40,778 nt of DNA, taken from positions 1 through 40,778 of IMG/VR virus record IMGVR_UViG_3300022924_000011. One strand, given 5' to 3'. A program made the translations under genes and the position numbers. The notes below the pieces were generated by a model. The model was not told the DNA's origin and ran no database searches. It saw only the letters and a list, made by a program, of their open reading frames with translations. Below, one piece after another: positions 12,960-39,806 of the stretch. This DNA comes from a virus. Positions within the stretch are counted from its first letter, which is position 1. Every line of letters begins with the position of its first letter.

Positions 12960-13189
12960 TTATTTTAGTAATATGGATTATATTTAGCTTTTGGTATTCA
13001 GCAAAAAATGAATACATAAAAAGGCATATGGCTAAAAATAAAAATGATTATGACTATAAATATTATTTAAAATGGTGTTTGGATAACGGAGAAATACCAG
13101 CAGATAAAATATCATTTATAAAAGAAGTTGAGGACAAAGAAAATAATATTAAAAATATAATAAGCGGAAGCCGAAAAGCTAAAGAGTAG
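12956..13189 (+). CDS. N-terminally anchored small membrane protein
   Basis: 77 aa from ATG 12956 (MIILVIWIIFSFWYSAKNEY...), overlapping the previous stop as ATGA. One membrane helix at residues 2-14, then a charged cytoplasmic-type tail. An upstream ATG at 12929 would give a longer overlap and is less likely. Function unknown. Confidence 0.6.
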   Translation: MIILVIWIIFSFWYSAKNEYIKRHMAKNKNDYDYKYYLKWCLDNGEIPADKISFIKEVEDKENNIKNIISGSRKAKE

Positions 13190-13211
13190 GCAAATATAAA
13201 TACACAAATAT

Positions 13212-13481
13212 ATGTACACATTAAGAAAGGTTATCGAAGGTCAAGAAGAATGTAATTTTAATCTTGGCAACTATTATTCATTGATTGAAGAATCAAAATT
13301 CCCAAAACATTTTGAACAAACATTTGAAATGGTTTTTAATAATTGCCCTCCTTATACAGATGATAAATGTTATGCTTTTGTAACTTCTGAAAAAGGCAAA
13401 GTTGAACCATTATGGTTAAGCCAAAAAAATTACATTATGACCGAAAACGGAAAAACATTTAGCAACCTTTCAATTAAGTAA
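13212..13481 (+). CDS. Hypothetical soluble protein
   Basis: 89 aa (MYTLRKVIEGQEECNFNLG...), with NCPPYTDDKCYAF in the middle. No signal peptide or membrane segment. It resembles small, uncharacterised phage proteins with a 'YTLRKI..G.E.N..LG..Y' start, but I cannot assign a function. It stands third in the four-gene island. Confidence 0.6.
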   Translation: MYTLRKVIEGQEECNFNLGNYYSLIEESKFPKHFEQTFEMVFNNCPPYTDDKCYAFVTSEKGKVEPLWLSQKNYIMTENGKTFSNLSIK

Positions 13482-29714: not shown

Positions 29715-30383
29715 TTAAAATAATTTAGTCTGTCCAACGTGGTTTTTTATTCTTTTTATTGATGAATCGTAATAGTCTTTATCAAGTTCGCAAGCAGTCA
29801 GCTCAAACCCGTAATCGTGGCAAGCTATGGCAATTGAACCAGAACCTAAATGAGTGTCTAATATTTTATCATTTTCTTTTGCGTAGTTATCTAATAGCCA
29901 TTGGTATAACTGAATAGGCTTTTGAGTTGGATGATATTTTTTAGAAGCAGATGTTTTCCCATCTAAATTACCATAATAACGGTAATCAAATTGTTTTGCC
30001 ACCTTATTAAATGAAGTGTAAGCAAGTTCTCCGTCGCTAAAGTTAGGTACAGGATTTCCTTTAAACCAAAATATAAATCCTTTACAACCTTGTTTCCATA
30101 ATATAGGAAAATAATTTCCCCCCCAAACTATTTGATTTTTAGATACACGTATAAGCTCCTTAAAATATTCATCTGTTGGTATTTCATTATCCCATTCTGC
30201 GTTTTTATACTTATTTTCTTTAATGCGTTCTCCATTTGTTGCTTTGTTAGTCCTATTGAACTCTCCAAATCCAATCCCATACGGCGGATCAACAATTGCC
30301 AAATCAAAATAATTATCAGTATAACGAGCCATTAAAGCCATATTGTCTTCGTTGGTAATCTGTATTTTATCTGTTACATGCAT
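29715..30383 (-). CDS. DNA adenine methyltransferase
   Basis: 222 aa. Catalytic motif IV DPPYG at 32-36, and the S-adenosylmethionine-binding motif DTHLGSGSIAIACHDYGFEL late in the protein. This order (DPPY before the FxGxG-type motif) marks the beta-class N6-adenine/N4-cytosine group, and DPPY favours N6-adenine. Near-complete domain length and no partner nuclease nearby suggest a solitary phage methylase, probably protecting phage DNA from restriction. The gene begins 2 bases after the previous stop. Confidence 0.85.
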   Translation of the reverse strand: MHVTDKIQITNEDNMALMARYTDNYFDLAIVDPPYGIGFGEFNRTNKATNGERIKENKYKNAEWDNEIPTDEYFKELIRVSKNQIVWGGNYFPILWKQGCKGFIFWFKGNPVPNFSDGELAYTSFNKVAKQFDYRYYGNLDGKTSASKKYHPTQKPIQLYQWLLDNYAKENDKILDTHLGSGSIAIACHDYGFELTACELDKDYYDSSIKRIKNHVGQTKLF

Positions 30384-33984: not shown

Positions 33985-34000
33985 CCCCCGATTTCGGGGG
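33985..34000 (-). terminator. Terminator after the SSB-like gene
   Basis: Minus strand stem CCCCCG / CGGGGG (complement of 33995-34000 and 33985-33990) with a 4-nt loop, followed by UUUUAAAUU. The U-tract is short, so some readthrough into the HTH gene is likely; no separate promoter for that gene was seen. Confidence 0.7.
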
Positions 34001-38048: not shown

Positions 38049-38603
38049 TCATTTTCTTTGTAATCCGAAATCAGACTTTCTTAATTTACACATTCTACCG
38101 TCTTGCAAGTTATGGAAAACTATTCCTTCATAATCGTGATTTTCTAACCAATTTTTAGCTGAATTAAATGACCAATCTCTGTTTATTGAAAATTCAGAAC
38201 CGTGCTTCAATAATTCATGACCTTTTATTTTTTCAGGATTGCCTTGAATCTTTTCTCCGCATAATTCATAAGTACCATCTTGTTTGTATTTCAATAAGTC
38301 AAAGGCTTCAAAATGATATTTATCAGATGACTTATCTCTTTCGCATAATATCCAATGTGGATGATGACCTGTAATTAAATCAGGTTCTTGACAAGGTATC
38401 GCTCCAATAGGTGCTTGTTTTCCTTTTTTAGCATCATAACGTCTATATAATTTTCCGTTTATTATCGCACAGCTTGTTCCGTCAAATTTAAGTGAAGCTA
38501 ATGTTTTTTGATTAAAAACCCAAGAGTTTTCCTCGTTAACTTCATTAATAACCCTACTCAAGTCGTTTGGATCTTTTTTAAATAAAGTTGTGATTTTTTC
38601 CAT
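38049..38603 (-). CDS. RNA-ligase-like nucleotidyltransferase
   Basis: 184 aa from ATG 38601-38603. Motif I is LKFDGTS with Lys39 as the AMP-accepting lysine (KxDG). A YELCGEKIQGNP segment at about 112-123 fits motif III. Motif IV is EGIVFH (159-164) and motif V KLRKSDFG with Lys173/Lys176. Together these define the covalent nucleotidyltransferase core of the RNA ligase 1/DUF5565 type. The chain is short, with no extra C-terminal domain. It could repair or circularise RNA, for example tRNA cut by host defence. It follows a structured leader, described separately. Confidence 0.75.
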   Translation of the reverse strand: MEKITTLFKKDPNDLSRVINEVNEENSWVFNQKTLASLKFDGTSCAIINGKLYRRYDAKKGKQAPIGAIPCQEPDLITGHHPHWILCERDKSSDKYHFEAFDLLKYKQDGTYELCGEKIQGNPEKIKGHELLKHGSEFSINRDWSFNSAKNWLENHDYEGIVFHNLQDGRMCKLRKSDFGLQRK

Positions 38604-38668
38604 AATATAAAAAAATAATGCCCCCACTCGCTACAAATGAAGGCATTAATAAATTTTAGTTGTAGCGA
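38604..38668 (-). ncRNA. Structured leader RNA of the RNA-ligase gene
   Basis: Minus-strand RNA: A = UCGCUACAA (complement of 38660-38668), B = UAAUGCC (38642-38648), A' = UUGUAGCGA (38628-38636), B' = GGCAUUA (38616-38622), then seven U and the ATG at 38603. A:A' pairs over 9 bp and B:B' over 7 bp, and they interleave, so they make an H-type pseudoknot or exclude each other. B:B' plus the U-run is a terminator placed just before the start codon. Possible roles are attenuation or a short stable RNA. Confidence 0.65.
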
Positions 38669-38672
38669 ATTA

Positions 38673-38703
38673 CAAATCTAATATAAATTACGGGTTAATC
38701 CAA
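38673..38703 (-). promoter_or_regulatory. Promoter for the RNA-ligase leader
   Basis: Minus strand: TTG (within TTTTG, complement of 38701-38705), 20-nt spacer, TAGATTTG (complement of 38673-38680). Exact consensus, overlapping the stop of the 55-aa gene. The predicted start is at the first complementary arm of the leader. Confidence 0.75.
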
Positions 38704-38845
38704 AATTATTTTTGTAAGTGCTCTTTTGAAACTTTATCTTACGTCTTTCGGATCTATTTGGTTTAGCTTCAGGAACATAATTATTCTCAATAGGAATGTA
38801 TTGAAGTCCCAAAACAGGATCGTAGTAAAAGTTATCTTGTGCCAT
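38678..38845 (-). CDS. Small basic protein
   Basis: 55 aa (MAQDNFYYDPVLGLQYIPIE..., then RSERRKIKFQKS). Tyr-rich N-terminus and a basic C-terminus. Clean open frame between a promoter upstream and the ligase promoter at its end. Missed by length limits. Function unknown. Confidence 0.5.
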   Translation of the reverse strand: MAQDNFYYDPVLGLQYIPIENNYVPEAKPNRSERRKIKFQKSTYKNNFGLTRNLY

Positions 38846-39105: not shown

Positions 39106-39125
39106 CAAAACTATTCCAAATAAAA

Positions 39126-39159
39126 AAACCGCTTTCTATATTTTACAAAGAAGCGGTTT
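39126..39159 (-). terminator. Terminator of the endolysin operon
   Basis: Minus strand stem AAACCGCUU / AAGCGGUUU (complement of 39151-39159 and 39126-39134), loop of 16 nt that can close by one more wobble pair, followed by a U-run. It begins about 30 bases after the endolysin stop. Confidence 0.8.
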
Positions 39160-39191
39160 AAATATTTTATTATGAATTGTAAATGTAATGA

Positions 39192-39806
39192 TTATTTTAA
39201 TAGCGAGTAAAAATAATTTACTTTAGCGTAAACATCATCTAATCCTATCGATCCACCGTTTATTGCCTTACGTACTTTTTTAATGCTGTCATAATTTACA
39301 GTCGAAGCCATTGACCATAACTTATTAGAATCAAAATAAAACTTTGCAGATTCCAAAGCGTATTCTTTCGAAACTAAATCCGGGTTCTTAATTAGGTCAA
39401 CTCCTAAATATTTGCCTAACAATGTATAGTTGTTTTTCCCTGTTGTCTGCAATGCACCACGACCACGAAACTTATAACCCTCTCCTGAATTAAAGTTACC
39501 ATTACCCATACGGTTAGCATAAACTACATTTGCAATATCTTTAGGCTTGCGTGCGTATTCAATAGCAGTATTTTGATTGAAGTATTTAGGAAATATTTTT
39601 AATAGTCCAGGAGCTGAATAGTTTAAGTTTTCCTCAAACACTTTAAAACCTCCTGTTTCGTGCCAAGTGTTGCCGACAAAATGTGCCGTAGCTTCTATTG
39701 TCGGAATGCCTACAACTTCTTTAATTTTAAGAAGCGTATTTTTACCTATAACACCATCAGCATTTAATCCATTTAGCCTTTGGAATGATTTTATAAATTC
39801 GCTCAT
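39192..39806 (-). CDS. Endolysin, glycoside hydrolase family 19 type
   Basis: 204 aa. Short N-terminal peptidoglycan-binding half-repeat (FQRLNGLNADGVIGKNTL, 8-25). The GH19 catalytic domain follows: HETGGF (Glu50), EENLNYSAPGLLKIFPKYF (Glu59), and YKFRGRGALQTTG (111-123). It cleaves the peptidoglycan sugar backbone. No signal peptide, so it needs a holin. It is the last gene of an operon whose other members are membrane proteins and which crosses the genome join. Confidence 0.9.
   Translation of the reverse strand: MSEFIKSFQRLNGLNADGVIGKNTLLKIKEVVGIPTIEATAHFVGNTWHETGGFKVFEENLNYSAPGLLKIFPKYFNQNTAIEYARKPKDIANVVYANRMGNGNFNSGEGYKFRGRGALQTTGKNNYTLLGKYLGVDLIKNPDLVSKEYALESAKFYFDSNKLWSMASTVNYDSIKKVRKAINGGSIGLDDVYAKVNYFYSLLK

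Follow-up and report, generated by a model that had tools for sequence, protein, structure and literature searches.

The window analysed here, that is, the whole 40,778-nt stretch of virus DNA in IMG/VR record IMGVR_UViG_3300022924_000011, holds on its minus strand a short leader between a gene of 55 aa (38845-38678, -) and the gene of an RNA ligase (PHROG 14301, E 1e-62). Along this strand the elements follow each other in the order TTG-N20-TAGATTTG-TAAT-A(TCGCTACAA)-CTAAAATTTAT-B-TTCAT-A'(TTGTAGCGA)-GTGGG-B'-TTTTTTT-ATATT-ATG (Table 1), every element lying where the preliminary description placed it, and the coordinates given there are all exact. The -7 box (38680-38673) overlaps the stop codon of the upstream gene. 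A and A' are perfect 9-bp complements, and neither occurs exactly elsewhere in the 40.8 kb; an 84% match at 30090-30121, considered as a second copy, lies inside a methyltransferase gene and was dismissed as chance. The interleaved A:A' and B:B' pairings noticed earlier are both present, B and B' being only the base of a larger structure: their pairing extends inward through G.U and Watson-Crick pairs to form a 15-bp hairpin (38648-38616) with the loop UAG. Since A' is part of the apex of this hairpin, A:A' and the complete hairpin are mutually exclusive.

Table 1. Leader elements and cargo gene in the window.
Feature	Positions	Strand	Remarks
Putative Bacteroidota-type promoter	38673..38705	-	TTTTG 38705-38701, 20-nt spacer, -7 box TAGATTTG 38680-38673
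A strand, TCGCTACAA / TCGCUACAA	38660..38668	-	predicted RNA +1 to +9; putative antiterminator 5' strand
B strand, TAATGCC	38648-38642	-	read from sequence
A' strand, TTGTAGCGA / UUGUAGCGA	38628..38636	-	terminator apex and partner of A
B' strand, GGCATTA	38622-38616	-	read from sequence
Terminator hairpin, 15 bp, TAATGCCTTCATTTG-TAG-CGAGTGGGGGCATTA	38616..38648	-	from folding and covariation; B/B' form its lower part
Triloop UAG within A'	38633-38631	-	loop of the 15-bp hairpin
U7 tract	38609..38615	-	immediately 3' of the hairpin
Cargo gene, RNA ligase, 184 aa	38049..38603	-	ATG 38603-38601, 5 nt past the U tract
Leader block, ~80 bp	38594..38674	-	identical in two other phages; unrelated sequence on either flank

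Folding of the 69-nt leader gives an MFE of -18.2 kcal/mol (z = -3.9), a stability equalled by none of 200 shuffles. The A:A' stage reaches -9.9 kcal/mol, whereas the mean is -1.5 after shuffling just the 9 nt of A, with 1 of 500 shuffles as low. The feature is beyond chance even in this single sequence, and the comparative evidence confirms it.

Other RNA elements are found in the same window. A DUF805b RNA (RF02914, 45.9 bits) at 13161-13192 (+) lies just before a small gene at 13212-13481 (+), in an accessory block that interrupts the late operon in reversed orientation; at this place, the relative G011 has the putative attenuator cassette. A simple strong terminator hairpin, AAACCGCTT..AAGCGGTTT TTTT (39121-39173, -), is located directly behind the lysin gene, and a weak covariance-model match at 39116-39198, considered as a second leader, was set aside as this ordinary terminator. 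A palindromic GC hairpin, CCCCCGATTTCGGGGG, at 33985-34000 has a terminator-like score on both strands and is possibly a bidirectional terminator.

Conservation of the leader among viruses

Scanning 2.9 million viral contigs with sequence patterns, and then filtering for the hairpin, the -7 box, and the T-rich tail, yielded a family of 63 loci (the window and 62 IMG/VR contigs) with 27 distinct hairpins, carried by about 60 different uncultivated viruses. BLAST clustering sorts the cargo into 38 families. The patterns and filters require the A and A' core, the TA of the -7 box, and the T-rich tail, and thus partly fix membership; the TA that opens the -7 box in 63/63 loci is a selection criterion, as is in part the T-rich tail found behind the stem in all members. 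Both the type of promoter and the closest ligases suggest that the hosts are Bacteroidota. A single strong covariance-model match was obtained in each of 28/28 virus records (66-97 bits, with the runner-up at or below about 30), a result to be read as one copy per record rather than per genome, as the contigs may be incomplete.

No leader match was obtained in 50,697 deposited phage records and 72,556 plasmids, 0 of 395 sampled Bacteroidota genomes carried the leader, and no clear member emerged when 84,980 species genomes were scanned with a strict pattern. Five genome matches to the strict pattern were rejected: four of them are near-palindromes matching both strands, and the covariance model gave no match in the four genomes searched. 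Matches to the pattern GCTACAA..TGCC..TTGTAGC were mostly chance, and identical 8-mers in a NusG paper proved to be synthetic scaffold oligos. None of the Rfam covariance models reached its gathering threshold on the element, the best being NsiR1, with 34.5 against a cut-off of 39 in one member, and the leader was not found described in literature searches. As far as these searches reach, the RNA leader family is undescribed.

The preliminary description considered the leader to be promoter-driven, in agreement with the putative sigma-A-type promoter architecture kept in the 63 loci. In 61/63 of them, exactly 4 nt separate the -7 box (TAnnTTTG) from the start of A, and since the -7 box of Flavobacterium psychrophilum spans -12 to -5 (PMC9723704), A is predicted to correspond to RNA +1 to +9. 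The architecture common to the family consists of this promoter, A as the predicted 5'-terminal nine nucleotides, a covarying hairpin, a U-rich tract, and a start codon within about 10-20 nt. The U tract directly follows the stem in most members, while one subfamily has a 3-nt spacer (GGGGCT-AAC-TTTTTT) that would weaken termination.

The hairpin has a covariation score of 0.577, compared with 0.174 in shuffled alignments (0/500) and 0.06 to at most 0.164 in slid controls. Across the 27 distinct hairpins, 90.6% of the cells pair, and 11/15 pairs have changed on both sides, including two pairs beside the invariant apex; those directly under it (columns 12-26 and 13-25) covary as CA/UG, UG/CA, UC/GG, and UA/UA. 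The compensatory changes anticipated among relatives were, therefore, found for B/B' and the upper stem, but not for A/A', where none was detected among the family members and a 7-bp core is invariant. Positions 8-9 of A vary, some loci having mismatches there (AC, TT), and the A:A' helix may be only 7 bp long.

Scans in which one strand was left free gave the same picture of constancy, with A' present in 20/20 matches, and A present in 29/29 with at most one change. When it was the triloop and the middle of A that the scan left free, no covariants were recovered and both were invariant. This invariance of the triloop and the A centre exceeds what pairing explains, and points to a sequence-specific trans factor. 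The span from A to A', in turn, varies between 40 and 47 nt with all eight consecutive values represented, which speaks for a pairing in the RNA and against a phased DNA operator.

Cargo genes and insertion sites

Regulation linked to the ligase, suggested earlier for the window, has been abandoned, because the leader is missing before homologous ligases and precedes 37 other gene families. Ligase relatives from IMG/VR and Cellulophaga phage phi10:1, with 55-61% identity, have unrelated upstream sequences, and the leader covariance model gave no significant match on the records carrying six ligase relatives. The cargo of the family includes lipoproteins, NUMOD4/HNH endonucleases, small membrane proteins, an endolysin-like protein, and the RNA ligase, together with many genes without assignment (the membrane-protein and endolysin-like calls were made by eye). 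The cargo ORF begins 18-34 nt past GCGAG in 59/63 loci, i.e., in all loci with a cargo ORF.

The leader moves jointly with the oriented cargo gene. In three phages the 80-bp leader block is identical and both flanks are unrelated, while G002 and the window agree in the neighbouring genes and differ in cargo. Gene maps of 18 contigs, built with a simple ORF caller, place the cassette in between structural genes or replication genes, or else behind the lysis region. In 5/18 of these contigs it lies antisense inside late genes, where it needs a promoter of its own. An idea that the leader heads an early operon fits the window, but was discarded, as other phages carry the cassette between structural genes and in either orientation. 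Gene families 8 and 14 flank the cassette in G003, G012, G019, and G026, and are adjacent or one small gene apart in G001, G002, and G009; similarly, families 5 and 40 are adjacent or one gene apart in G008 and G022. All five of these genomes have the cassette elsewhere. Some carriers, such as G004 and G001, have no gene cluster in common. By its gene context, the element behaves as a moron-like accessory cassette: it has a promoter by sequence and a variable gene between conserved genes, and the site is empty or nearly so in relatives. No integrase was found in the window.

Several cargo genes deserve a comment of their own. The commonest is a small lipoprotein (MKKVLLILGLSISLLSCND..; L144, L163, L164, L178, L180, L192, L193, L203, L287, and L288), which lies antisense between late genes in both such contigs, G007 and G020, and is a candidate for superinfection exclusion. 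The 100-aa cargo of L150 starts like the P-loop of EF-Tu (KVGTIGNVDHGKTTLSADI), with PF00009 below the cut-off, and is possibly an elongation factor Tu mimic. The first cargo gene of L304 looks by eye homologous to the second cassette gene of G021 (L273, 16223-16582), a likeness which suggests that cargo may move between positions.

Predicted switch and alternative readings

The leader is probably a transcription attenuator acting in cis, with a single exchangeable moron-like gene per virus genome under its control, and, in the best reading of the sequences, its antiterminator strand would be the very 5' end of the RNA. As the polymerase advances, the nascent 5' end (A) would pair with A' and keep the hairpin open, so that the polymerase would pass into the cargo gene. 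If A were unavailable, or A' were recaptured by the hairpin, transcription would end at the U tract after ~60 nt of RNA, and no mRNA for the cargo would be made. With the hairpin reaching up to the start codon, hardly any cargo mRNA would escape this decision. As in attenuators based on intrinsic terminators, a covarying 15-bp hairpin with a U tract precedes the gene, and the alternative helix A:A' excludes the terminator whose apex holds A'. As for attenuation by a leader peptide, no conserved short ORF was found, and an ATG precedes the end of A' in only 8/51 leaders.

Folding by transcript length is consistent with this attenuator. In 41/41 distinct leaders, A:A' is the MFE structure once A' has emerged and until B' emerges, and the terminator hairpin takes its place when the stem is complete, 6-10 nt after A:A'. 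These modelled, mutually exclusive folds support the antiterminator/terminator switch against a start codon envisaged in the preliminary description. The swap falls 4-13 nt ahead of the end of the U tract in these leaders. RNA polymerase hides roughly the last 8-14 nt of the transcript, and with such a footprint the predicted swap point would be about where the polymerase decides. The A strand folded alone adopts no structure. The apical G.U pairs of the hairpin, invariant except in one locus, entail A.C mismatches in the complementary A strand and thereby leave A unfolded, an arrangement that would fit strand exchange.

A switch based on pairing alone should let the triloop and the A centre covary, and the absence of such changes counts against it. 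The invariant A core and UAG triloop rather suggest that a sequence-specific trans factor, either a host protein or an RNA, sets the balance between both folds. No phage gene family is common to all carriers (the maximum is 13/18 contigs), which would make a host factor, or else the short RNA, the more likely candidate. An extension of this idea, to which we give little credence, is that the terminated ~60-nt RNA acts in trans through its free A, pairing with A' of other leaders in sister genomes or in a co-infecting unrelated phage, and switching the cargo by viral genome dosage. The invariant A and A' would, in that case, act as a shared RNA signal among phages that otherwise have few genes, if any, in common.

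Other regulatory mechanisms could be assigned to the same elements. A translational switch or mRNA-stability element, in which the hairpin would hide the ribosome landing site and A:A' would open it or cap the 5' end of the mRNA, is rather unlikely, even though the hairpin base lies ~10-20 nt before the start codon (with the start 18-34 nt past GCGAG) and a spacer separates the stem from the U tract in some members. A precedent is the short RNA IsrK of Gifsy-1, which acts in trans on the translation of its own read-through mRNA (PMC4825925). However, T-rich tails like those of intrinsic terminators follow every stem, and a hairpin with a translational role needs none. It is also improbable that the locus is in essence a small-RNA gene, whose promoter and terminator would yield a stable ~60-nt RNA acting in trans through the free A, with the downstream gene expressed by read-through. 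One copy per genome, variable sites and orientations, and the invariance of A and the triloop would be expected of such a gene, but an independent small RNA would not need the cargo ORF that lies within 18-34 nt in 59/63 loci and moves together with it.

The invariance of A and A' could likewise reflect a DNA operator or, given the GTAGCG core, which we take (as a lead only) to resemble the E. coli ops core, a pause site in the non-template strand that recruits an RfaH/UpxY-type NusG paralogue to suppress the terminator. About half of Bacteroidota possess divergent NusG paralogues (PMC7593976). This reading is nevertheless doubtful, since the repeat spacing takes every length in an 8-nt range, with no helical phasing, an ops-like site alone leaves A unexplained, and no NusG-like gene was found in the window. 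The least probable reading, and a very improbable one, is the static H-type pseudoknot contemplated in the preliminary description, in which A:A' and the lower B:B' would coexist in a leader that binds a protein or ligand. Both pairings are available in every member, and the loop lengths suggest that the loops could span the stems sterically in most of them. As the sole structure, however, the pseudoknot would leave open the upper-hairpin pairs beside A' (columns 12-26 and 13-25), and these covary; moreover, in 28/29 leaders the nested A:A' alternative is less stable than the full hairpin (in the other, L152, both are equal, but its sequence was taken there from the wrong strand, which the 63-locus set corrects).

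As an attenuator, the leader would represent a common expression gate for accessory genes, in a family shared by several virus groups with different structural genes (the single copy having been checked per record), which suggests that cargo can be swapped without a change of control. The leader also flags accessory genes for the discovery of their function, and raises the testable question of which factor reads the invariant CGCUAC / UUGUAGCGAG.

Comparison with known systems

The DUF805b RNA (RF02914) resembles the leader in being a conserved leader RNA that precedes another accessory gene in the same window, although it differs in sequence and structure, and its model gives no match to the A/A' leader. 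The moron cassettes of tailed phages share with the cassettes described here the autonomous promoter, the insertion between conserved genes, the variable cargo, and the sometimes antisense orientation. To our knowledge, the promoter of classical morons is not separated from the gene by a conserved attenuator like the one proposed here.

Among phage RNAs, IsrK from the Salmonella prophage Gifsy-1 combines a phage promoter, a short terminated RNA, and a read-through mRNA on which the short RNA possibly acts (PMC4825925). However, IsrK is a single locus with no sequence relation shown, unlike the 63 loci with internal A/A' complementarity. The CI RNA / seqA immunity of satellite phage P4 also relies on RNA-mediated premature termination of phage genes, but through a processed antisense RNA and several sites (PMC4825925), whereas here both strands are within one leader. 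In mechanism, the leader would resemble antiterminator/terminator attenuators, where the first helix to form prevents an intrinsic terminator, located right before the regulated gene, from folding later. Contrary to these, no aptamer, leader peptide, or tRNA site was found in the leader, the antiterminator strand would be located at the extreme 5' end of the RNA, and one invariant switch would serve dozens of unrelated genes in unrelated viruses.
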